In this document: positions 187 to 49,562 of the stretch, in pieces | Numbering within the stretch: position 1 is the first letter of the stretch | Layout: every line of letters starts with the position of its first letter | Assembly: GCF_011044495.1 (NCBI RefSeq) | Contig: NZ_CP049143.1 | Span: 806,001 to 870,000 of the forward strand | Direction: 5' to 3' | From: Roseimicrobium sp. ORNL1 | Lineage (GTDB): Bacteria; Verrucomicrobiota; Verrucomicrobiia; Verrucomicrobiales; Verrucomicrobiaceae | Length of the DNA: 64,000 nt | Made by a program: the position numbers and the translations under genes | Notes under the pieces: model-generated | Told to the model about the DNA's origin: nothing | The model's input: only the letters and a program-made list of their open reading frames with translations | Databases searched by the model: none

Positions 187-3100
187 ATGCAAATCCCCTA
201 CGTGTTCAGGGCTACCGGTGCCCTCCTCCTCGCCGGCCTCAGCTTCACCGCCGAAACCTTTGCCCAGACCACCTACACGTGGGATGGGAGTTCTGATGGC
301 AACTGGGGCACCGCCGCAAACTGGACGGGTAACGTTGCACCTGTGGATGCTGGAACCGCACCGGAGAACATTGTCCGGTTCGACAACAACAGCACAGCGA
401 ACCTGCTGACGACGATGAACCTCACGAGCGGGTTCGACTTGAGCCAGATTATCGTCACCAATCCCACAGGCACGATCACGATTCGCGCCGTGAACAACTC
501 AAGTCGTGTCATCGACCTTTGGGCGAATGGTTCGAATCCAACCATCGACATGTCGACAGCGACGCAGGATCTGATTTTTGCGAATCAAGGCTCTGGGACC
601 ATGACTCTGAATGTGGCCAACACCAGCCAGACCTGGAACGTGGGTGGCGGACGTACGCTTACCACTTCGGATGTGGATGGCAGTACTGCCCAGATCCTGA
701 CGCTGACCGGCGGTGGAACAATCATCCTTGGCGGTACTACTGACAACGCCAGTCTGCGGGTCACCGTGTCGGGCAATACTCTGGTGACACTTGGCAAGAC
801 CGCTTCGACTGCCGCCATCCATGCTCTTGGTGGGAATGCCACATCAGTCATCGACAATGGATCCACGATGCGCATCACGGGCACCGGTGGAGACCAGGTC
901 TTCTTCCAGCATGACCTTCAGGTGGACGGTGTGTTTGATTTGAACGGGCAGTCGGAGGGTATCGATGCACTTTCCTCCGCCGCAGGTTCCGCAACCGGCA
1001 TCATCACCAGCGGCGCAGTCGGCAACGTGACGTTGCGTATCAACGAGAACGGCGCTGGGGGCACCTATGGCGGCATCATCCAGGATGGCGGGGGTGTCGT
1101 TTCTGTATTGAAGGCGCACACCGGCACGCAGGTCTTTGCCGGGAACAACACTTACAACGGCTCCACCACCGTTTCGCGCGGCATCCTGCAACTTCTAGGC
1201 GCCTCCGGTGCTTTGAGTGGTACCAGCAGCATCATCCTGGATGGAACGGGCGAGCTGCGTCTCGACAGTCGTTCCACCTCGGGCGGGTTTGCCGCGGCGG
1301 TGAACAACAACCGCGTTGCGGATGATGCCACGGTCGACATGCGTGGCGGCATCTTCTCCGTCTATGGTGTCAGCACGGCGGACGTCAGCGAGACGGTTGG
1401 TGCCCTGAGTATTACCTCGGGCTTCAACGTGATTCGCCTGTCATCCGATACTGTGGCCGGCACCACGACCACTGGCCTCACGTTGTCTGGTCTGAGCCGC
1501 AGCATCGGCGCCACCTTGGGTGTCATGGCAGACAACCTCACCGTGGCCACGGATTTTGGCACGGTGACGACCGGTGCTGATGCCGCGTATCTCCGCGTCG
1601 TCACTGGGAACATCGCTTCGTCCATGATCTCCGGTGCCAGCGGCACGGGTACGGAGCGAGATATCCTCATCGGCGTCTTCGGTAGCGGAAGCACGACGAA
1701 TGCGAATGCCAGCGACTTCATGACGGTGGAGAGCGGGATAGGTGGCTATGACTATCTCCGGCCGCTGCTTGCTTCTGAGTATGCCACCGCCACCAGCGGA
1801 GAGATTGGGCAGAAGAACGCGCTCAGCACGGCGAATACCACGCTGAACCTTTCCACCGCGTACAATGCCTTGAAGATTTCTGGCGGAGCATTGAGCATCG
1901 GGGCGAACAAGACCCTTTTCCTTGGTGGTCATGCTGGTTCCGGCTCGGAAGGCTCGGGCATGCTGCTGATCACAGGGGGCACGGGTATCACCGGCGGATT
2001 GACCTCCCTGGCTACCCTCGATTTCGGCGCTCGCGAAGCCATCATCCGTGTCACGAGTGCCACGGCCAACATCGATGCCCACATCACCGGTACCAAGGGC
2101 CTTACCAAGTCCGGCACCTCCGCTCTCGTGCTGAACAATTCCAACTCCTTCAGCGGTGCGGTGTATGTCACGGAAGGTACGCTGCAGGTAAAGAATGACA
2201 AGGCGCTTGGAGCTGCGGGTGGCCATGTCTTTGTCGGTTCAGGTGGCACAGCGAGCAATTCGCTCTTCCAACTCTCGACGGGCGTGAACATCACAGGAGA
2301 GAATGTGACCTTGGGAGTTTCCAATGCCAGCCAGAGCGTGGCGTTTGGCTCAGCCAGCGGACACAATACCTGGGGGGGCGATGTGATTGCGTCGAACACG
2401 GGTCTTGGTGGCCGTTCGGATTCCGACAGCCAGATCCAGGCGTCCGGTGCCGAATCCTCTTTGACCATCTACGGCAGAGTGTACGCCGCCCAAGGCGATA
2501 CGCAGACGGACCTGACCTACTACGGAAACGACAGCAACTTCACCCGGAGAATCAGTTTCTCCGGCAGCAGCACGGGTACCATCAATCTGTATGGCACCTT
2601 GTCTGACACGGCCACAGGAGTCTCGGCAACGGCGGTGGATCGCTTGCGTGTGAACATGACGGGCAACGAGCAGCTGAACGTGAATATCGCGAATCAGGTG
2701 CAGGTCACCGGCATCTTCCACATGATCCAGGGCTACATGCGCTATGAAGGCACTGGCAACTTCTTCGACCCGACCACCAGCGGCACGGACCGTCTGGTGC
2801 TGTTTGACCCCGCTGGTACGGCCAGCCAGATTGCCCTCCTCCTTACCAAGGATGGTCAGAGCTTCTACCGCAGGACGGCCGCTGGAGCCACGGATATCCA
2901 GATTGGCAACGGCGGTTCGGGAGTAGGCACCTCGGTGGCGAACGCGCTGATTGGGGGTGAGAACGAAACTGGAGTGGTCACCTTCGGGAGCGGCGTCCAG
3001 CACATGGAATTCAATCCCGTGACTGCCGCCGCGGACGTGGGTCGTTTCCGTGACTTGCGTCTCTATGCGCGTCAGGGTGGCGAGGTGGAAATCAAGATGT

Positions 3101-6100
3101 CCATGAGTGACGACAGCGGCTTCGCGCTCAACAACGAAATCGGCGCGCTGACCAAAGTGGGCCTTGGCACGGTGCGCCTCACGGGACGCAGCGGCGTGAA
3201 CAACGACCTCGACGGTGGTGTGTATGCTCTGGGCGGTACCTTGCTCCTCGACTACAACACGGTGAACAACGTCAAGATTCAGGCCGCGGAGGGCGCGCAA
3301 TTCACCACGGCTGGCGGTGACCTGCGGCTGATCAAAGGGAGTGCTGGATCTGGAGCCATAACCGAACTCATGAGCGGCAGCCTCGCAGTGCGCACCGGGG
3401 GTTCGGAAATCAGCCTGGATGCAGGGGCGGGAGCGACTCTGAGCTTGCGCCTGGCTACGAACACGGGTGCCACCATCACCCGGCAGAACGGCGGTACGCT
3501 GAACTTCGTGAAGAGCGGCCTCGGGACCTCCAGCATCAAGGTGGGTCTCGCGGCGATTCAAAACACCCGCCTCGGTTCCTACGCCACCTTTGGCACGGCC
3601 AACAATCAGGCGACCTCCTGGGCTTTTGTCAGCGCCGGTACCAATGAAATCACTTCGTACACACACAGTGCCGGGGAAATCAACACCTTCGGTGCAGGCC
3701 TGAATACGGACCTCACCACCTCCAATGTCACCCTGGGCGCCGCCACCACGACAAACAGCATCCGTCTCAACGACAGTGCTGTCACGTCCATTGGGCTGGG
3801 CGGAAACCAGCTCACCATCACCGAGGGCGGTATCCTGGTCGGTTCCGGCCATACTGCGGCGTTGAGCATCAGCAACGGCACCATCACCACGGGCGGTACC
3901 AACGACCTCATCATTCACAACTACGGCACCGGTGGACTCACCATCAGCGCGGACATCGTCGGCGCCACTCAATCGGTGACGTACGCGGGCACGGGCATTA
4001 CCACGCTTTCGGGTGCGAAGACCTACACCGGTACGACGTACCTGGTGGGTGGCACGGTTTCCATTGCGTCCGATGGCAGCCTGGGCAATGCGGCAAATGC
4101 GATGTATTTCAACGGTGGCACCCTTCAGACCACCGCGACGATGACCATCGCCCGTGGTATCACCATCGGTGGGGATGCAGCCTTCATTGATACGAATGGC
4201 GCGGCGAACGTGACCACGCTCTCGGGCGTCATCAACCGCGAAGGCAACTTCATCTACAATGAGACGAATGCCAGCGTCGGCGCCATCATCAATGCCGCTA
4301 ACACGGACAACGTGGGCGTGGGTGACATCATCAAGACGGGCGCAGGTACGCTGGTCATCTCCGGTACCGCCAACCTCTTCTCCGGTGTGGTGGATGTGCG
4401 CCAGGGCACGCTGCAGATCGTGCTCGCGGACGTGACCGCAGCACAGGGGAACCTGGGCACGAACGAATCCTGGCTGGATGGCACCATCATTCGCAGTGGC
4501 GCCACCCTTGCCATCAACAAGCTTGGGACCGCGAACATCACCACCTTCGCCGAGTGGATTCGCATGGAGAACAACACTCGAATCAACGTGACCGGCGGTC
4601 GCTTTACCACCTCGGGATTGATGGAGGTGCAAGGCGCGCTCACCATCGATGTTGCCAGTGGAGCGCAATTCGACCAGCAGAGCGCTGGCGGTTACATGTT
4701 TGGTAACGGGAATATCACCAAGACCGGACTCGGTACCTGGATGCTCCTGGGGAACAATACCCTCTTCACGGGTGCGCTCACGGTGGAGAATGGCATTCTC
4801 GGCGCTCGTGGCCAGGGTATGATCACGGGCTCTGATTTTTCGGAGTTGATCACCGTCGGAGGCACCGGCACCACGGCGGAATATCGCCGTTTCTCAGCCA
4901 ACGAGTTCACCAACAACCAGCTTGTGGAGAATCACAACTTCCTGATCACGGGCACGGGTGTGAAGCGCATCGGTTACGGCAATGGCTCGGTGCCGAACGG
5001 TGATGACTTCATCGATTTCAACGGCACCATCACGGTGAACACGGCGGTGGAGCTCAACGTGGATACACCTGGCGGCACGCGCTCCCAGACGGCGTACATG
5101 CGGTTCAACAACTCCTTCTTGGGCGCGGCCAATGCCAGCACCCGCGTTGCGGGCGGCACCGGCACCTTCACCCGCACGGGCGTGTTCGAGCTCAACGGGG
5201 ACAATTCGGCCTGGTCGGGCGGATTCACCGTGGGGAATGCCACTGCTACTCCGCTGAACATGCATGTCCTCCGGCTCGGCAATAACGATGCCCTGAAGTC
5301 CGACAACAACGTGACCCTTCTCCACAACAGCACCCTTCAGGCTGGGGGCCGCACGGTGACGGCGGGCAATCTCACAACATCCGGGAACGTGGGCGCAACC
5401 TCCAACGAAATTGTCGAAAACGCAGCGCATGCCGACGGCACCATCGCTTTCACCCAGACGACGAATGGCAACTGGGATGCAACCTTCCGCGACGGCACGC
5501 CTGTCGGCACGGTCTACGAACAGGACGGAAACACCACAGTGGGCAAGCTGAACATCGTGAAGGAAGGCAGTGCGATTGCCACGCTCACGCTGGACAACCT
5601 GTACACTGGCAGCACCACGGTGAATGCCGGTACCTTGCAAGTGGGTTCAGGTGGTTCGGCCACCAACCGCGCGGTGGGTGACACCGGCACGGGCGCTACT
5701 TCGAGCGTGCTCACGGTGAATTCGGGTGGACGTGTCGCGGGCACCGGTACGGTGCAGGGTGTCGCAAGCTCCACGACGCACTTCGTGACCGGCACCATCA
5801 GTCCCGGTGATATCGTCAGCGGCACTTCGACCACCGGTACCCTTGATGTGGTGGGCAATCTGAATGTGTCCGGCGGCACCATCCACCTCCAGGCGGCGAA
5901 CAATACGACCAACGACAGCGAACTCTCCGTGTATCAGACTGGCACGGCAGAGTACTCACAGCGCATCATTGATGGCATTTCGGAGTGGGAGTCGTCGGCC
6001 AATGGTACCACCCGCGGTGATCACGACATGCTGAACATCGATGGCCAGCTCACCCTGGACTCGAACTCCACCGTGAACGTGGAGTTCCTCACCTACCTCG

Positions 6101-6440: not shown

Positions 6441-6475
6441 CTTGGAGGGACGCATGAACGTCACGACGCCGAATG

Positions 6476-6669
6476 CCTTGGACTGCGGCAGCCTGCTGCC
6501 GCTTTTCTAAAGTGCAGCCCGCTGCACGTTTCACCGCGACGAAGTCGCCAACCTCTTCCGGACACATCACGCTACGAGTGAGTGTCGCCATCGCCACAGC
6601 AGGCTGTGGACCCTTCAACGCGGCGGCAGGCTGCGCGCAGTCCAAGGACGCTGCGCGTCACAGCATCCG
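6476..6669 (+). repeat. Multi-hairpin REP-like element, copy 1
   Basis: About 195 bases built of consecutive GC-rich hairpins. It opens with CCTTGGACTGCGGCAGCC and closes with the complementary GCAGTCCAAGG followed by GACGCTGCGCGTCACAGC. Internal parts include GTGCAGCCCGCTGCAC, GCGACGAAGTCGC and CCACAGCAGGCTGTGG. The same string of hairpins recurs at 30300, 31192, 37259 and 43695. It occupies most of the otherwise empty interval 6379-6913; nothing else is seen there. Apparent reading frames across it are by-products of the repeat. Confidence 0.85.
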
Positions 6670-6913
6670 AACTATTCGTAGATGTTGGCTCGCGAGCAGA
6701 TGGTAAATTTTGCCTCCCGCCTGCCACGGGACGTTATCCATGGCGCGACGACAAAAAGCGTTATGGAGAGCACAATAACGCGTGATGAGTGCAGGGGAGA
6801 CTGCGGGTATCTTGCCTTTGGTTTCGTTTCCTCCCTACGGAAACACGCCTGGACCTGTAGGGTGTATCCGTTCTTTACTTGACGCCCTTATCGCGAAAAC
6901 CTAGCGTCGCGCG

Positions 6914-8474: not shown

Positions 8475-8617
8475 GGAGGATGAATGGAGTGATGTGGGGC
8501 GAAGACATGAGAGGCGTTGCCGATGGCTGATGGTGCTGAACAGCCCATGGTCTTCGTCTTCGTTTAGCGACCATGTTCACCATGCTCTTCAAGGTAAGCG
8601 TCTCTTCATCAATCGGC

Positions 8618-8785
8618 GGTAGGGATGCGCTCCTGCGCGTCCGTCTTTAGGCGGGCGGAGGTGGTGCGGAGTGAAGGGGTGAAACCAGCTTGCAACGCTG
8701 CATCTACCCACCGCCTCCGCCCGCTATTCACGGACGCGCGGGAGCGCATCCCTACCGTCCATTTTTTGAGAGGAGCGTTGGCGTC
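8618..8785 (+). repeat. Nested palindromic repeat family B, copy 1
   Basis: Outer arms GGTAGGGATGCGCTCCTGCG (from 8618) and the near-perfect complement CGCGGGAGCGCATCCCTACC (to 8756) enclose inner arms GCGGGCGGAGGTGGTGCGG (8651-8669) and CCACCGCCTCCGCCCGC (8708-8724). The conserved right flank TCCATTTTT..GAGAG extends the unit. A second copy lies at 49391. It fills the interval 8475-8862, where no gene is seen. Confidence 0.8.
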
Positions 8786-20530: not shown

Positions 20531-20627
20531 GAGTAGCCGATTCTCTCCGAGAATCGAGGCACGTGAAGACGTCCCTGAGTGAACGAGCGAGATGCATGCT
20601 GCGACTTTCGGAGAAAGTCGGCTACTC
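20531..20627. repeat. Palindromic repeat family C, copy 1
   Basis: The outer arms GAGTAGCCGATTCTC (from 20531) and GAAAGTCGGCTACTC (to 20627) are nearly complementary. Each arm also folds on itself: CGATTCTCTCCGAGAATCG on the left and CGACTTTCGGAGAAAGTCG on the right. A reversed copy lies at 35417. It sits between the convergent sorB and the ACT-domain gene, where it may also stop transcription. Confidence 0.75.
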
Positions 20628-27343: not shown

Positions 27344-28489
27344 ATGCACGCCCCCGCGAATCCATCGACCTCCGGCGTCATCCCGAATCCGTTCGCCCGG
27401 CCCAAAACCAACAAGGAGCTCTACGAGTTCCTGTGGAAGCAGGTGCTGCGCGTCTGCACGTACACCATCATCCTGGCGGTGGCGGCCATCTTTGTGCCCA
27501 TCATCTGGAAGGGCGTGCCGGTGGTCTTCAAGACCTCCGCGCCCTTCGTGAACACGGACTTCCTCACGAAGCTGCCGGAGACACTCCACGTGCTGGAAGA
27601 CAAGCAGGGGAACAAGTACGAGACCGACCCCAAGGGCTCCGACGTCATCAAGGCGAAGCTGGGTGACAACCTCCGCTCGGAAAAGACCATCTCCTACTCC
27701 GGTGGTGGTATCCTGGGTCCCATCGTCGGCACCGTATTACTTGTCGCGTTTTGTATCGTGATCGCCCTGTTCCTCGGGATTTCCTCAGCAGTGTACCTGA
27801 GTGAATATGCCAAGCACGGACGCTTCATCGAAATCGTGCGCCTCGCCATTCTGAATCTCTCGGGTGTGCCTTCGGTGGTGTTCGGTCTCTTCGGCCTGGG
27901 CATCTTCGTGCTGAGCGCTCCAGTCTTCACGGATGTACCACTGGACCGCTCGCTGCTGGTCATTCCCCTGGGCTTCACCAAGCTCAGCTTCCAGGGCTGG
28001 GATGCCTCCGTGCTCAGCGGTTCCTTCACCCTCGCCTTCGTGATTCTCCCCGTGATCATCACCGCCAGTGAGGAGTGCCTGCGCGCCGTGCCGCAGGGCT
28101 TCCGTGAAACGTCCCTCGCGCTGGGCGCCACCCGGTGGCAGACCATCTGGAAGAGCGTGCTGCCCTTCGCCATGCCGGGCATCCTGACCTCCAGCATCCT
28201 GGGCATTGCCCGTGCCGCCGGCGAGACTGCGCCCATCATGTTCACCGCCGCCCTTGCCTTCAAGGACAAGCTGCCCTGGCAGGGCGATGCCGGGGCCATG
28301 GGTGTCTTCACCGAGTCCGTCCAGGCCCTGCCGTATCACATCTACACCATCGCCGCGCGCATCCCGCAGAGTGAGTACTCTGAGCGCGCCCAGTATGGCT
28401 CGGTCTTCGTCTTTCTGGTGATCGTACTCGCATTTGCCACAGCGAGTGTGTTGCTCCGTCGCAAACTCCGCGCCAAATACAAATGGTAG
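27344..28489 (+). CDS. pstA: Phosphate ABC transporter permease PstA
   Basis: A 381-residue permease starting three bases after the pstC stop. After a cytoplasmic N-terminus and first helix (about residues 38-58) comes a ~65-residue periplasmic loop (..[20 protein letters not shown]..), then the permease core with [15 protein letters not shown], the contact loop [20 protein letters not shown] and [18 protein letters not shown]. It is longer than usual PstA (about 290 residues) because of the N-terminal part. It pairs with PstC in the inner membrane. The last 7 bases overlap pstB, which suggests translational coupling. Confidence 0.92.
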
Positions 28490-29340
28490 CCGCCCCCCCA
28501 CAACCCCGTACCTCCTCCGTGGATCTGTCCCCCGCGCCCAGCGAGCCCCAGGAACGCGCCGAGCCTCTGTCGACCGCACAGCAGGAAGGCATCATCTCTG
28601 TGCGCAGCATGGATTTCATGTATGGCACGAAGCAGGCGCTCTTCGGCATCAACCTGGAGATTCCCCCAAACCAGGTGACCGCCTTCATCGGACCGTCCGG
28701 TTGCGGCAAGTCCACCCTGCTGCGCTGCTTCAACCGCATCAATGACCGCATCCCCGGCGCCCACATCGGCAAGGGCAAGGTGATCATCAAGGGCAAGAAC
28801 ATCTACGACGCGGATGTCGATACCACCCAGCTCCGCCGCCAGGTGGGCATGGTCTTCCAGAAATACAATCCCTTCCCCAAGAGCATCTACGAGAACGTGG
28901 TCTACGGCCTCCGCATTGCTGGGGAGAAGAAGAAGAGCGTGCTCGACGAAGCCTGCGAACGCGCGCTCCGCGAAGCCGCCCTCTGGGACGAGACCAAGGA
29001 CCGTCTGAAGACCAATGCCTTCGGCATGTCCGGTGGCCAGATGCAGCGCCTCTGCATCGCCCGCGCCGTCGCCGTGAAGCCCGACATCCTCCTCATGGAT
29101 GAACCCTGCTCCGCGCTCGACCCCATCGCCACCCTGAAGGTGGAGGAGCTCATCGTCGCCCTCCGCAAGGAGTACACCGTGGTCATCGTGACCCACAACA
29201 TGCAGCAGGCCCGCCGCGTGGCAGACCTCACCGCCTTCATGTACATGGGCAACCTCATCGAGTTCGCCGACACGGTCGCCATCTTCAGCGCTCCCCAGCA
29301 AAAGAAGACCGAGGACTACATCCGCGGCCAGTTCAGTTGA
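28483..29340 (+). CDS. pstB: Phosphate ABC transporter ATP-binding protein, first copy
   Basis: A 285-residue ATPase. About 40 Pro/Ser-rich residues precede the PstB core. The Walker A motif is GPSGCGKST, the Q-loop region is VFQKYNPFP, the ABC signature is [14 protein letters not shown], and Walker B is [13 protein letters not shown], with His in [10 protein letters not shown]. It powers phosphate uptake through PstCA. The start ATG at 28483 overlaps the pstA stop codon by seven bases. The signature has Met-Ser-Gly-Gly in place of Leu-Ser-Gly-Gly, a mild departure. A close paralogue follows. Confidence 0.93.
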
Positions 29341-29429
29341 GGAAGGGGCGGTCCTGCTCGTGCTCATACTCTTGCTCCCCGGCTTCTGAGCCCACGCTTT
29401 TCACTTACCCCTTTTCCACTTTTCACTTC

Positions 29430-30248
29430 ATGTCTGCCACTGCCACCGCCCCGACTACAGCCAACGGCACGCAAGGGTCCTCCTCCGCCGGAGGCCCGCA
29501 GGTGAAAATCAACGGCGTGGACTTCTGCTACGGCACGAAGCAAACCCTCTTCGACGTCTCGCTGGAAATCGCCAACAAGGAAGTCACCGCCTTCATCGGA
29601 CCGTCCGGCTGCGGCAAGTCCACCCTCCTGCGTTGCATCAACCGCATCAATGACCTCATTGAAGGCGCCCGCATCACCAAGGGAAACATCACCCTCGGTG
29701 GCGTGGACATCAATCGGCAGCACATCGACGTCATCGCCCTGCGTCGTAAGGTGGGCATGGTGTTCCAGAAGTACAACCCCTTCCCCCGCAGCATCTACGA
29801 GAACGTGGCCTACGGCCTTCAGGTGGCTGGTGAGAAGGATAAAAAGGTCATCGCCGAAACCGTCGAGCGCAGCCTGCGCTCTGCGACCCTTTGGGATGAA
29901 GTGAAGGACCGCCTGCATGAAAGCGCCCTCGGTCTCTCCGGAGGCCAGCAGCAGCGCCTCTGCATCGCCCGCACCCTTTCCGTGAAGCCCCAGGTCGTCC
30001 TCATGGACGAACCCTGCGCCGCTCTTGACCCCATCGCCACCGCGAAGATTGAGGAGCTCATCACCGTGCTCAAGGAGCAGTACACGATCGTCATCGTGAC
30101 GCATAACATGGAGCAAGCCGTCCGCGTCAGCGACCGCACCGCCTTCTTCTACTTGGGCAAGCTGATTGAGTTTAACGATACGATGAAACTCTTCACCGCG
30201 CCCGAGAAGCCAGAGACGGAGCGGTATTTGAGTGGACGGATGGGGTGA
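29430..30248 (+). CDS. pstB: Phosphate ABC transporter ATP-binding protein, second copy
   Basis: A 272-residue paralogue of the preceding protein. All nucleotide-binding motifs are intact: [63 protein letters not shown]. The N-terminus is a Thr/Ala/Ser-rich stretch of about 30 residues. I chose the ATG at 29430 (MSATATAPT); the longer frame has a Cys/Ser-rich lead of no family likeness. It follows the first copy after 89 bases. Two pstB genes in one operon are known in other bacteria (for example Bacillus), and may be used under different conditions. No phoU is seen next to it. Confidence 0.92.
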
Positions 30249-30299
30249 GTTGGAGGGGGCAAGGGGTAGACAAGGGTATAAGGAGCAAAAGCTCCCGGT

Positions 30300-30508
30300 A
30301 GCTGATGCGTAGCATCCTTGGACTGCGGCAGCCTGCTGCCGCTTTCCTCAAGTGCAGCCTGCTGCACGTTTCACTGCGACGAAGTCGCCAAGCCTTCAGG
30401 GAGATGTCATCTCACGAGTGAGTGTCACTATCGCCACAGCAGGCTGTGGACTCTAGAAAGCGGCAGCAGGCTGCCGCAGTCCAAGGACGCTGCGCGTCAA
30501 AGCATCCG
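30300..30508 (+). repeat. Multi-hairpin REP-like element, copy 2 (left flank of RAYT)
   Basis: Begins AGCTGATGCGTAGCATCCTT and runs through the hairpins GCGGCAGCCTGCTGCCGC, GTGCAGCCTGCTGCAC, GCGACGAAGTCGC, CCACAGCAGGCTGTGG and GCGGCAGCAGGCTGCCGC, to GCAGTCCAAGG and the end GACGCTGCGCGTCAAAGC. This copy keeps the internal hairpins best. It lies 60 bases upstream of the RAYT start and in opposite orientation to the copy at 31192. It fills the interval between pstB and the RAYT gene. Confidence 0.88.
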
Positions 30509-30567
30509 AACATCCTTCACTCCGCCATTGCGCTTGACACCTGCAACAGATTTGCTGCCATGCCTTC

Positions 30568-31197
30568 ATGGACCCGCTACGCCTGCCAACGGATGCCGAA
30601 ATCGCCGACGGCACGCGTGAATGGCCTCACGCGCCTCCTCATCGCCTGAAGTTGGGAGGGGTTTTCTTCGTTACGGCACGTGCGGCCAACAGACGTCATC
30701 TCTTGAACACGCCTAGCCGACGGGATTGGTTTCAGGATACGCTATTCTCGCTGATCTCAGAGTTCGGTTGGCAGTTGGAAGCGTGGGCAGTTTTATCCAA
30801 CCACTACCATCTCATTGCGCACAGCCCCGCTGAGCAGCGAGACGGGGCACTTTCCCTGAAGTCGCTTGTCCAGAAGCTGCATAGCTTTACGACCAAAGAA
30901 CTGAATCGTCAGGATGGCACCCCTGGAAGAAACAGGCTCTGGCAGAACTATCGTGAGACATTGCTAACCTACCAGGAGAGCTACATGGCTCGATTGAACT
31001 ATGTGCATCAGAATGCAGTTCATCATAAACTTGTGACTCGTGCATCCGACTGGAAGTGGTGCAGTGCACGCCAGTTCAAGGAAGCCGTGACACCCGCGTG
31101 GGTAAGGACCGTGGCGAGTTTCAAGTTTGATCGAATTGCCGTCGAGGATGAGGATTTTGATACCGATATGGCTGAGTCAGAAAACCTCGGCAGCTGA
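30568..31197 (+). CDS. REP-associated tyrosine transposase (RAYT, Y1_Tnp family)
   Basis: A 209-residue single-stranded-DNA transposase of the HUH, one-tyrosine class. The metal-binding HUH pair is His79 and His81 in LSNHYHLIAHS, and the likely catalytic Tyr145 is in RLNYVHQNAVHHKLV, matching the Y..xNPV..G pattern of RAYTs. WEA/WAV and WQNYRE motifs typical of the family are present. RAYTs bind and cut hairpin REP sequences. Here the gene is bracketed by inverted copies of the multi-hairpin element, and its TGA stop is inside the left end of the downstream copy. Length and motifs are intact, so it is probably functional. Typical family length is 130-230 residues. Confidence 0.9.
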   Translation: MDPLRLPTDAEIADGTREWPHAPPHRLKLGGVFFVTARAANRRHLLNTPSRRDWFQDTLFSLISEFGWQLEAWAVLSNHYHLIAHSPAEQRDGALSLKSLVQKLHSFTTKELNRQDGTPGRNRLWQNYRETLLTYQESYMARLNYVHQNAVHHKLVTRASDWKWCSARQFKEAVTPAWVRTVASFKFDRIAVEDEDFDTDMAESENLGS

Positions 31198-31383
31198 CGC
31201 GTAGCGTCCTTGGACTGCGGCAGCCTGCTGCCGCTTTCTAGAGTCCACAGCCTGCTGTGGCGATGGTGACACTCGCTCGTAGGGTAGAAAGCTTGGCGAC
31301 TTCGTCGCGGAGAAACGTGCAGCAGGCTGCACTTGAGGAAAGCGGCAGCAGGCTGCACGCAGTCCAAAGAGGCTTCGCCTCGG
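31192..31383 (-). repeat. Multi-hairpin REP-like element, copy 3 (right flank of RAYT)
   Basis: Begins AGCTGACGCGTAGCGTCCTT and then shows the reverse complement of copy 2: GCGGCAGCCTGCTGCCGC, GTCCACAGCCTGCTGTGG, GGCGACTTCGTCGC, GTGCAGCAGGCTGCAC, GCAGCAGGCTGCACGCAGTCC. The TGA at 31195-31197 is the RAYT stop codon, so gene and element are physically joined. It ends about 35 bases before the scpB stop codon. Confidence 0.88.
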
Positions 31384-35416: not shown

Positions 35417-35506
35417 GTAGCCGACTATCTCCGAAAGTCGCTGCGCGTGAAAACCACCCTTGGGAGTGCTTCACTCGCATCGATTCTCGGAGAGAATCGG
35501 CCACTA
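35417..35506. repeat. Palindromic repeat family C, copy 2
   Basis: GTAGCCGACTATCTCCGAAA.. on the left and ..TCTCGGAGAGAATCGGCCAC on the right are the arms found at 20531-20627, in reverse orientation. Inner hairpins GACTATCTCCGAAAGTC and CGATTCTCGGAGAGAATCG are kept. It ends just before the scpA stop codon. Confidence 0.72.
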
Positions 35507-37258: not shown

Positions 37259-37475
37259 CGCGACAGATCCAGATGCTGTGACGCGAAGCGTCCTTGGACT
37301 GCGTGCAGCCCTGCTGCCGCTTTGAAGAGTCCACAGCCTGCTGTGGCGATGGCGACACTCGCTCGTAAGGTGATGCGTCCAGAGAGAGTGGCGACTTCGT
37401 CGCGGTGACGCGTGCAGCAGGCTGCACTTTAGGAAAGCGGCAGCAGGGCTGCGCGCAGTCCAAGGCCTTCGGCAC
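37259..37475 (-). repeat. Multi-hairpin REP-like element, copy 4
   Basis: Starts with CGCGACAGATCCAGATGCTG, TGACGCGAAGCGTCCTTGG, and runs in the same sense as copy 3 through GTCCACAGCCTGCTGTGG, GGCGACTTCGTCGC and GTGCAGCAGGCTGCAC to GCGCAGTCCAAGGCCTTCGG. Its two ends match those of copy 5 (43695-43909) over more bases than any other pair. Much of the 480 bases between the YiiX-like gene and the ceramidase fusion is this element; nothing else is seen. Confidence 0.85.
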
Positions 37476-43694: not shown

Positions 43695-43909
43695 GTGCCG
43701 AAGGCCTTGGACTGCGTGCAGCCCTGCTGCCGCTTTCCTCAAGTGCAGCCTGCTGCACGCTTCATCGCGACGGAGTCGCCAAGTATTTTGGACGCATTAC
43801 CCCGGGAGCGAAGGTCACCATCGCTACAGCAGGCTGTAGACTCTGGAAAGCGGCAGCAGGGCTGCGCGCAGTCCAAGGACGCTGCGCGTCACAGCATCCG
43901 GATCTGTCG
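43695..43909 (+). repeat. Multi-hairpin REP-like element, copy 5
   Basis: Begins GTGCCGAAGGCCTTGGACTG and proceeds GTGCAGCCTGCTGCACG, GCGACGGAGTCGCC, CTACAGCAGGCTGTAG to GCGCAGTCCAAGGACGCTGC, GCGTCACAGCATCCGGATCT. Two bases change together in the CTACAGC/GCTGTAG stem (others have CCACAGC/GCTGTGG), a compensatory pair that argues for selection on the hairpin. It occupies most of 43574-44047, which contains no gene. Confidence 0.85.
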
Positions 43910-43923
43910 TGAATGGCACGTGA

Positions 43924-44047: not shown

Positions 44048-44956
44048 ATGGCTAAACCAGCACTCGGCAAAGGACTCGGAGCATTGATCGGCAAGGCTGC
44101 CGCTCAACCGCCTGGGTCTGTGCCTGTCTCCTTCACTCCGCAGCCCGCGCCGGGCGAAATGGTCCGCAAAGTTCCCCTCGGTGAGGTGGTGCCCAGTCCG
44201 CTGCAGCCGCGTAAGGAGTTTGCGCCCGAGCATCTTACGGAGCTGATGGATTCCATCCGTGAGCACGGCATCATCCAGCCGCTCATCGTGCGCCTCGTCC
44301 ATGGGAAGCATGAACTCATCGCGGGTGAACGCCGTTTCCGCGCGAGCCGTGAGCTGGGTCTGAGCGAAGTGCCCGTCATCGTACGCACCGCCTCGGACAA
44401 GGACGTGCTGGAGATGGCGCTGATTGAGAACCTCCAGCGCGAGAATCTCAATCCCCTGGAAGAAGCGCAGGCCTATGTGCGCCTCGCCAAGGAATTCGGC
44501 CTGAAGCAGGAAGACATCGCCCAGCGCGTCGGCAAGAACCGCGCCACCGTGGCGAATGCCATCCGCCTTCTCGAGCTTCCTGGCGGCGTGCAAAATTACC
44601 TGCGCGACGGCAAGCTGAGCACCGGTCACGCGAAGGTGCTCCTCTCGCTGAAGAAGACCGAGGAAATCGAAATGGCCGCGGAGGAAGTCCTTCGCAAGTC
44701 ACTCACCGTGCGTGCCACGGAGAAGCTGGTGGAGAGCATCCTCAACCCACCCGCGCCGAAGCCCAAGCCCTCAGCTCCGGATGCTGAGCTCAAGGTGGCG
44801 CTGGATTCCATCCAGACACGCCTCACGCGCCATCTCTCCACCGGCATCGCCATCCATCACGGTGAGAAAAAGGGCAAGGTCGAGATCGAGTACTACAGCG
44901 TAGATGATTTGAACCGCCTGCTCTCCGCCATGGGATTGCCGGATGATGTCGTCTAA
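44048..44956 (+). CDS. parB: ParB/Spo0J-type chromosome partition protein
   Basis: A 302-residue ParB. It opens with KPALGKGLGALIGKAA, the usual ParA-contacting N-terminal motif, then the CTPase/ParB domain with PLQPRKEF.., GIIQPLIVR, and GERRFRASRELGL, MALIENLQRENLNPLEEAQA, and the DNA-binding helix-turn-helix (TQEDIAQRVGKNRATVAN-like: KQEDIAQRVGKNRATVANAI). A C-terminal dimerisation part ends the protein. It loads on parS and organises the origin region. Neither parA nor gidB is adjacent, and no clear parS site (TGTTTCACGTGAAACA) is visible, so parB stands apart from its usual partner. Confidence 0.93.
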   Translation: MAKPALGKGLGALIGKAAAQPPGSVPVSFTPQPAPGEMVRKVPLGEVVPSPLQPRKEFAPEHLTELMDSIREHGIIQPLIVRLVHGKHELIAGERRFRASRELGLSEVPVIVRTASDKDVLEMALIENLQRENLNPLEEAQAYVRLAKEFGLKQEDIAQRVGKNRATVANAIRLLELPGGVQNYLRDGKLSTGHAKVLLSLKKTEEIEMAAEEVLRKSLTVRATEKLVESILNPPAPKPKPSAPDAELKVALDSIQTRLTRHLSTGIAIHHGEKKGKVEIEYYSVDDLNRLLSAMGLPDDVV

Positions 44957-48842: not shown

Positions 48843-49390
48843 TTGCAGGGGGGGACTTTTTCAAAAACAGACTCTCATTCTCAGTTTTGAGAGGGTGCAA
48901 CACACCCATTTTACGAAAATTTTAGGATTTTTCCGTTTGACAGGGGTGCCAGAAGAAAGATTTGGCCCGGAAAAATCATTTATTCATGGAGAAATTTCAC
49001 ATTTCTTTACCGTCCAACTTGGCGTGGGGGGCGTAACCGGTAGCCCTGAAATGCCTCGAAAAGAGGTGACTGACGAGTTTTGAGGCAAGCCGGCGGGGAG
49101 GGGCGGATGCGGCAAATCCCGAGTTTCGGCGATGACCTTCGCGGCGGTGCATCCCGGTTTGTGAGGTTCGTCCGAGAGGTTCACATTTCACAGTCATCGT
49201 GCTTGTCGTTTAGATCTCTTCGCGATCATTGACTGCATTCCAACGGGGATGACATGTGTGCGCGACTCAATATTGAAATCGTGATGCGAGCATCCATTCG
49301 TCACGCAGATGGGTGCATTTTCCAACGCGTTGTTGAAGCGTTTTCGGTTCGCGACGTTCTTCCATGCAAACGTCCCTCCTCCAACAATGC

Positions 49391-49562
49391 GGTAGGGATG
49401 TGCTCCTGCGCGTCCCACTTCAGGTGGGCGGAGGCGGTGCGGAGCTTTGGCGTGAAATCGCCTGCGACGTTGCAGCAACCCACTGCCTCCGCCCGCTATA
49501 TGCGGACGCGCAGGAGCGCATCCCTACCGTCCATTTTTGGGAGAGGGAGGCTTTCGTCCGGG
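49391..49562 (+). repeat. Nested palindromic repeat family B, copy 2
   Basis: Outer arms GGTAGGGATGTGCTCCTGCG (49391 on) and CGCAGGAGCGCATCCCTACC (to 49528), with inner arms GTGGGCGGAGGCGGTGCGG and CCACTGCCTCCGCCCGC, match copy 1 at 8618. The right flank TCCATTTTTGGGAGAG continues the likeness. Same orientation as copy 1. Confidence 0.8.

Follow-up and report, generated by a model that had tools for sequence, protein, structure and literature searches.

The window, a 64,000-nt stretch at positions 806001–870000 of the single 7.96-Mb contig of the host genome (G000), contains a RAYT gene between two inverted copies of a multi-hairpin element, further copies of which are dispersed in the same window. 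The features, including the stretch that is absent from the syntenic site of a sister species (G002), are the following:

30568–31197, plus strand: RAYT / TnpA-REP gene, 209 aa, ATG start, with His79-Tyr-His81, Tyr145 and Asn149 all intact in its product (ORF list, profiles, structure alignment)
30303–30499, plus strand: upstream element copy (similarity within window)
30304–30316, no strand: left end hairpin GATGC..GCATC of the upstream copy (sequence; end types compared)
30325–30342, plus strand: outer REP hairpin 1 (GCGGCAGCCTGCTGCCGC) of the upstream copy, with TGGACT 5′ of the hairpin (sequence, motif scan)
30352–30367, plus strand: inner REP hairpin 2 (GTGCAGCCTGCTGCAC) of the upstream copy (sequence, motif scan)
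30376–30388, no strand: central hairpin GCGACGAAGTCGC of the upstream copy (sequence, covariation)
30434–30449, minus strand: inner inverted REP hairpin 3 (CCACAGCCTGCTGTGG on the minus strand) of the upstream copy (sequence, motif scan)
30460–30477, minus strand: outer inverted REP hairpin 4 of the upstream copy, with TGGACT on the minus strand (sequence, motif scan)
30486–30498, no strand: right end hairpin GACGC..GCGTC of the upstream copy (sequence; end types compared)
31195–31381, minus strand: downstream element copy, inverted (similarity within window)
31196–31208, no strand: end hairpin of the downstream copy, overlapping the RAYT stop codon (sequence)
31217–31234, plus strand: outer REP hairpin of the downstream copy (sequence, motif scan)
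31245–31260, plus strand: inner REP hairpin of the downstream copy (sequence, motif scan)
31317–31332, minus strand: inner inverted REP hairpin of the downstream copy (sequence, motif scan)
31342–31360, minus strand: outer inverted REP hairpin of the downstream copy, imperfect (sequence)
6468–6680, plus strand: dispersed element copy (similarity within window)
37259–37473, minus strand: dispersed element copy, empty syntenic site in G002 (similarity; synteny)
43697–43911, plus strand: dispersed element copy, empty syntenic site in G002 (similarity; synteny)
30296–31368, no strand: stretch absent at the syntenic G002 site, C1 ~44240–44271 (synteny alignment)

The two flanking copies are inverted, each ~190 nt long and 87% identical over 197 columns, and a unit of about 200 bases in inverted orientation on both sides of the gene is what the preliminary description of this DNA had reported. 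It had placed one copy 60 bases upstream and the other directly downstream; the left copy in fact leaves 68 bases to the RAYT ATG, and the right copy does start at the RAYT stop, with the TGA at 31195–31197 overlapping its first small hairpin. Instead of the five to six hairpins per unit counted there, seven can be drawn when both end hairpins are included, and the three further copies that it gave at 6476, 37259 and 43695 are real and lie at the positions listed above. At 30318–30620 and 31023–31367 the elements create spurious open reading frames (e.g. MDCGSLLPL...) that may get annotated as hypothetical proteins. Upstream of the unit, at 28483–30248, lie two adjacent phosphate-transport ATPase-like genes, presumably of pstB type; their DNA is 76% identical across the two longest stretches that match.

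The product of 30568–31197 has the HUH motif and single catalytic tyrosine of a RAYT and matches the RAYT family profile, NCBIfam REP_Tyr_transpos (NF047646), just over the cut-off (81.5 bits vs 80), whereas Pfam Y1_Tnp falls just under its own (22.7 bits vs 23). Its best solved structure is TnpArep 4er8 (PDB; E 1.2e-5), with whose HUH and Y..N motifs H79, H81, Y145 and N149 align; these four residues are invariant in 15/15 aligned proteins, and their roles in RAYTs are described in the text of PMC6006769 and PMC8266576. A transposase with intact His79, His81 and Tyr145 had been proposed from the letters alone, and the intact Asn149 and the profile match extend that assignment. W125, Q126 and E130 align with the guide-contacting W94, Q95 and E100 of the E. 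coli protein (numbering read from the alignment), and the guide residue R104 falls opposite T134 in the 4er8 alignment, in keeping with a guide other than GTAG. A search of a contig collection for the window RAYT gave one match, 27% identical, in an Opitutaceae MAG.

Element similarity searches of the examined G000 DNA gave 74 BLAST rows, some of them fragments of one element; the 59 rows of at least 170 bits were aligned, and ends, placement and arm counts were analysed on the 65 that reached 130 bits. From the left, the 59 aligned copies consist of a small end hairpin, CTTGGACT, an outer hairpin, TTTCC, an inner hairpin, the central hairpin GCGACGAAGTCGC, an inner inverted hairpin, an outer inverted hairpin, AGTCCAAGG and a second end hairpin. 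The four REP-like hairpins have a common top, CAGCC(C)YGCTG, and feet that vary compensatorily, and the whole element, of ~190–215 nt or up to ~300 nt counting ends, folds into a single long stem as well. A REPIN is defined by two inverted REPs that together make a long hairpin, and here that arrangement is doubled, such that a full element is a compound REPIN of two forward REP hairpins, a central hairpin and two inverted REP hairpins. The preliminary description was right that the units are longer and carry more hairpins than classical REPs, and this holds of compound REPINs, not of single long REPs. In the motif scan of the loci described below, the outer hairpin has tggact, or a close variant of it, on its 5′ side; the GT[AG]G that stands 5′ of the foot in classical REPs is replaced by TGGACT.

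Covariation was assessed in 38 sequences, 24 of the 59 G000 copies and 14 from G002, one of which (L180:437-649) is properly aligned in its right half only. All five measures were above slid controls, and four were reached by 0/500 shuffles and the fifth by 1/500. Doubly changed positions amounted to 8 pairs and 18 cells vs shuffled means of 2.3 and 5.2 (0/500 shuffles), while pairing cells reached 96.8% vs 95.9% in shuffled alignments, a small gap because most columns are conserved.

Many copies continue into additional end sequence that falls into a few types, and a TGAACGT.AGG tip occurs in some. We sought these end motifs with mismatches, near a core or elsewhere, in 0.37 Mb of G000 and 1.67 Mb of G002. 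In G000, where the loci had been picked for carrying elements and the counts therefore lean toward near-core, we found 70 b-ends near a core and 5 elsewhere, with 29/0 for the a-end and 26/0 for the tip. The corresponding counts in G002 were 8/18, 3/1 and 1/3; the lone far a-end there is a degenerate element, and the remaining far matches, all mismatched, are taken as chance. As the end motifs in G000 go with cores, we rejected the idea that the ends are pre-existing target repeats. The ends mostly belong to the element, and the GAGGC hairpin at the right end of the RAYT unit is ambiguous.

Across the G000 genome the exact arm pattern has 64 forward and 68 reverse matches, 132 in all, vs 0 and 0 for the reversed control; this is the genome-wide count suggested at the outset, and it is not explained by chance. 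Two exact arms were found in 38 of the 65 copies, one in 20 and none in 7, and this distribution with the 132 arms leads us to expect ~89 elements genome-wide; the arm pattern was derived from G000, which inflates the counts for G000 itself and for its sister G002. The copies are clustered relative to a uniform model (57 in the first 4.9 Mb, at most 5 per 25 kb, p 0.008), yet this clustering is not specific to the RAYT. Searches for carriage by viruses or plasmids gave 0 exact matches to the outer REP in viral contigs and, for the RAYT, only 28% identical transposases in three plasmid records, and such carriage was rejected.

By a crude ORF caller, 27 of the 65 copies lie between unidirectional genes, 23 between convergent and 5 between divergent genes, with 9 overlapping an ORF and 1 undetermined, and this placement between genes resembles that reported for REPs in the text of PMC3733652. 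The preference for gene 3′ ends (5/55 classified sites divergent) and the compensatory changes in the hairpins would also suit a structured RNA or 3′-end element selected for transcript stability or termination and spread by recombination. Such an origin is very improbable given the near-complete turnover of sites between sister species and the tie of the element to one RAYT clade, both described below. No Rfam family matched the window at its gathering score, and three sub-threshold matches at the RAYT locus were judged chance, so a structured RNA family at that locus was rejected. The element could conceivably have a secondary role in the host.

Other repeats and insertions were also observed in this DNA. 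One element copy at ~3512.2–3513.4 kb of G000 (L052 ~2735–3916) is split at a TA within CTAG by an insertion sequence with a helix-turn-helix-like ORF and a DDE-type ORF, which we take to be IS630-like. A different inverted-repeat element of ~150–170 nt has two copies in the window, at 8602–8772, with 43-nt arms, and at 49389–49538.

To relate the element to its putative transposase, we defined clade RAYTs as those of at least 62% identity, which are present in 12/59 genomes of the family; one genome with two broken RAYT pieces (G017; 70% and 60%) was counted among the 47 others. Arms are present in 11/12 clade-RAYT genomes vs 20/47 others, and three or more arms in 10/12 vs 5/47. Arm abundance differs between the 12 and the 47 genomes with a Mann-Whitney p of 4.6e-6, although related genomes are not independent in this comparison; a within-genus permutation of labels reached the observed value in 0/100,000 cases. 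Within genus g8, four RAYT-positive genomes (11, 5, 8 and 3 arms) stand against 35 RAYT-negative ones (maximum 7; p = 3.6e-4). Copy number correlates with the cognate RAYT, as it does for REPs and REPINs, with exceptions. It had been proposed that the link would be accidental if the element were equally frequent in genomes without such a RAYT, and these frequencies differ.

The hairpin type lies on both sides of the clade RAYT at 16/16 loci from 15 genomes and 10 genera, 7 of them in the host family and 3 in a sister family. The 16 loci contain 125 hairpin tops, whose first foot position is paired in 96%, with eight different fully paired 3-bp feet. By comparison, 10 non-clade RAYT loci (including L027 and L028 of G000) contain 11 stray tops with 27% first-foot pairing, and a background of 1.67 Mb of G002, its own elements included, contains 300 tops with 42%. 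The hairpin type flanks 0/10 of these non-clade loci, the element itself matches 0/8 non-clade RAYT loci of the family, and among the 20 Y1_Tnp loci of G000 only the two clade loci match it. The four-hairpin form is incomplete at some clade loci in the motif scan, with two hairpins per side at L038 and incomplete forms at L033 and L037. RAYT matches at E 1e-60 or better occur in 6/387 phylum genomes, three of the host family and three of the sister family. The three sister-family genomes have copies close to the RAYT, two of them most markedly, with 13/18 (G379), 5/8 (G269) and 4/17 (G289) arm matches within 15 kb; these tallies count the flanking copies, so the binomial p values are optimistic. 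In genus g12, which is without the clade RAYT, 15/15 genomes have 0 arm matches. As regards distance to the RAYT, which it had been suggested to plot, the copies show clustering in G000 that is not RAYT-specific and proximity to the gene in these three sister-family genomes.

In the available text of PMC2817692 and PMC8266576, the term REPtron denotes a RAYT gene with palindromes on its flanks that have further copies across the genome, and the window RAYT is flanked by REPs of this kind. The preliminary description had used this name, and the dispersed flanking palindromes justify it; inverted flanking copies, as at the window RAYT, are found at only 4 of the 16 clade loci, the other 12 being direct, and a GT[AG]G head is missing.

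Several genomes depart from this pattern. Arms occur without a clade RAYT in G011 (16), G049 (7), G040 (4) and G019 (3), and G235, also without it, has 24 matches with a second pattern; no such hairpin was found at nine RAYT-like loci of G011, G049, G040 and G235. Such genomes could once have had the RAYT and lost it, a loss that section 16 of PMC3733652 describes for many E. coli strains, or the element may be served by a different enzyme. Conversely, G006 has a clade RAYT and 0 exact arms, its flanks being a two-hairpin form in direct orientation. The genomes that have the element and lack the RAYT, and the mobility, near symmetry and long inverted arms of the element, would be expected of a MITE of an unrelated transposase with the RAYT as a passenger between two copies. 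We consider this highly unlikely, as the hairpin type accompanies 16/16 clade loci in 10 genera vs 0/10 and 0/9 other RAYT loci and has copies near the RAYT in the sister family.

Separately, we noted that four clade RAYT matches (L035, L037, L230 and L231) have one in-frame TGA each and are either decayed copies or matches that run beyond the stop. In G000, loci L009–L028 comprise 20 Y1_Tnp and 17 RAYT-profile matches. Almost every one is surrounded by repeats, inverted or direct, and several of these repeats have additional copies in other parts of the examined DNA. Window positions ~15031, 20598, 35417 and 58992 match flanking repeats of other G000 RAYTs (L020; L017 and L024; L016), and two of these matches adjoin an inverted pair at 20532–20575 and 35462–35505.

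The sister species G002, the only other genome of the genus compared, is largely collinear with the window and was examined over 1.67 of its 7.9 Mb; it has 75 arms of its own. Flank synteny was sought for the 74 element rows, of which 17, representing 16 sites, could be placed in the 1.67 Mb. The element is absent from 15/16 of these sites and present at one, so the comparison of empty sites proposed earlier points to the site turnover that is expected of mobile REPINs, as judged from sequence. This turnover bears on the view that the RAYT is domesticated, its hairpins being kept as a housekeeping substrate and their spread ancient and passive. RAYT genes are indeed described, in the text of PMC8266576 and PMC6006769, as mostly single-copy and without evidence of mobility, but with 15/16 syntenic sites differing between sister species and local copies around the RAYT in G379 and G269 we regard domestication as unlikely.

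At the RAYT site itself, G002 has 31 nt where G000 has 1115, and both flanks are syntenic at 86–87%. G002 reads AAGCTCC followed by GAGGC, and G000 has 30296–31368 in between; the GAGGC..GCCTC hairpin (31369–31381) has a counterpart at the empty G002 site, which sets the differing stretch at 30296–31368. No target duplication was seen at this site, the only one with readable exact junctions because intergenic DNA has diverged. The whole unit may have been gained by G000 or lost by G002. One possibility, which we hold tentatively and at well under even odds, is that the REPtron itself moves, the RAYT and both elements (1073 nt) having inserted between pstB and scpB. In addition to the length difference between syntenic flanks, this would fit the varied genes that adjoin clade RAYTs, with pstB/scpB at 0/11 loci (L030–L040, up to 1.5 kb each side), and the observation that among 30 scpB loci (of 56 genomes with scpB) a RAYT lies in the examined flank only at the window locus. 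Against it stand the lack of a target duplication and the GAGGC..GCCTC hairpin kept by G002, which could be a scar or a target. Moreover, the window RAYT shares 72% DNA identity with each of the other two copies in the genus, which are 82% identical to each other, making it a paralogue older than the species split that G002 may have lost; and pstB lies beside scpB in only 2/30 loci (G000 and G002), so no outgroup settles the direction. Movement of the unit is compatible with mobilisation of the elements in trans, as it concerns the RAYT gene and not the dispersed copies.

The second G000 RAYT (4.897 Mb) is syntenic with the G002 RAYT, and the RAYT segment is inverted between the two (G000 4896.9–4898.1 kb, L100, vs G002 C16 108.2–109.4 kb, L101), with collinear flanks and breakpoints inside the elements. 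The core of the one element site common to both species is inverted as well, and in at least 5 G000 copies the end types are swapped relative to the core. On these grounds the RAYT with its multi-hairpin arms could conceivably be a single-strand hairpin recombinase that also inverts DNA between two elements, an improbable reading; the same outcome would be expected from ordinary homologous recombination, or from template switching, between the arms.

Taken together, we interpret the locus as a REPtron-type unit in which the RAYT acts in trans to mobilise cognate elements that are themselves non-autonomous, and we put the probability of this at about 0.8. Cleavage and transposition by the window RAYT are inferred by homology to TnpA-REP; the E. 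coli enzyme cuts at a CT dinucleotide beside its REP (text of PMC8266576), and the conserved ACT at the foot of the outer hairpin contains a CT. We propose that the element hairpins would fold when DNA becomes single-stranded, on the lagging strand or in repair, and that the RAYT would bind the outer REP via its top and a 5′ guide in TGGACT. Tyr145 would then cleave the foot of the hairpin at its conserved CT or close by, and the released single strand would be joined to another exposed site. Elements would thereby spread in trans while the RAYT gene itself would seldom move, and long pairing of the two outer arms would let the element behave as one folded unit.

This clade is a natural experiment on RAYT recognition, in which a single RAYT clade and a single hairpin top remain associated in both families with feet and a 5′ flank unlike the GTAG type, and the empty sites in the sister species make mobility testable. 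Experimental RAYT work, as presented in the text of PMC8266576, was done on hairpins of the GTAG type from E. coli, Stenotrophomonas and Marinomonas. A literature search on RAYTs in Verrucomicrobiota gave, among the matches listed, by title only one paper that concerns RAYTs (PMC3733652), and one on REPs in Prosthecobacter gave none. In the open-literature text consulted, figures and additional files aside, we did not meet a four-REP element with a common top that follows one RAYT clade in two families.

The nearest known systems each share part of this design. Like the REPtron or RAYT-REP systems (PMC2817692, PMC8266576, in their available text), the present unit has an HUH-Y1 transposase gene flanked by genome-dispersed palindromes whose abundance follows the RAYT and which crowd around the gene in some hosts, but it lacks a GT[AG]G head, has four REPs per full element and has mostly direct flanking copies. 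REPs are described as species-specific in the text of PMC6006769, whereas the present outer REP is kept across 10 genera and two families. With REPINs and BIMEs (PMC3116915; definition in the text of PMC6006769) the element shares inverted REPs with a spacer, a one-hairpin fold and intergenic dispersal, and it differs in having two REPs, two inverted REPs and a central hairpin in ~190–300 nt. TIRtrons, in which long inverted repeats replace REPs (PMC3733652, section 16), are alike in their RAYT-like (TIRYT) gene, long inverted and partly self-complementary repeats and moderately abundant families; some of their TIRs contain a GGGGWSAS motif, and that text, by which they were compared, describes no four-REP element with a common top. 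RAYT subclass 2.6 and class 3 (text of PMC6006769) likewise have atypical, non-GT[AG]G flanking structures with further genomic copies; compared by description, class 3 is marked by a CnGA foot and the signature Y----Q, where the window RAYT has Y...N and TGGACT. The present unit belongs among these REPtron, TIRtron and subclass 2.6 / class 3 kinds.
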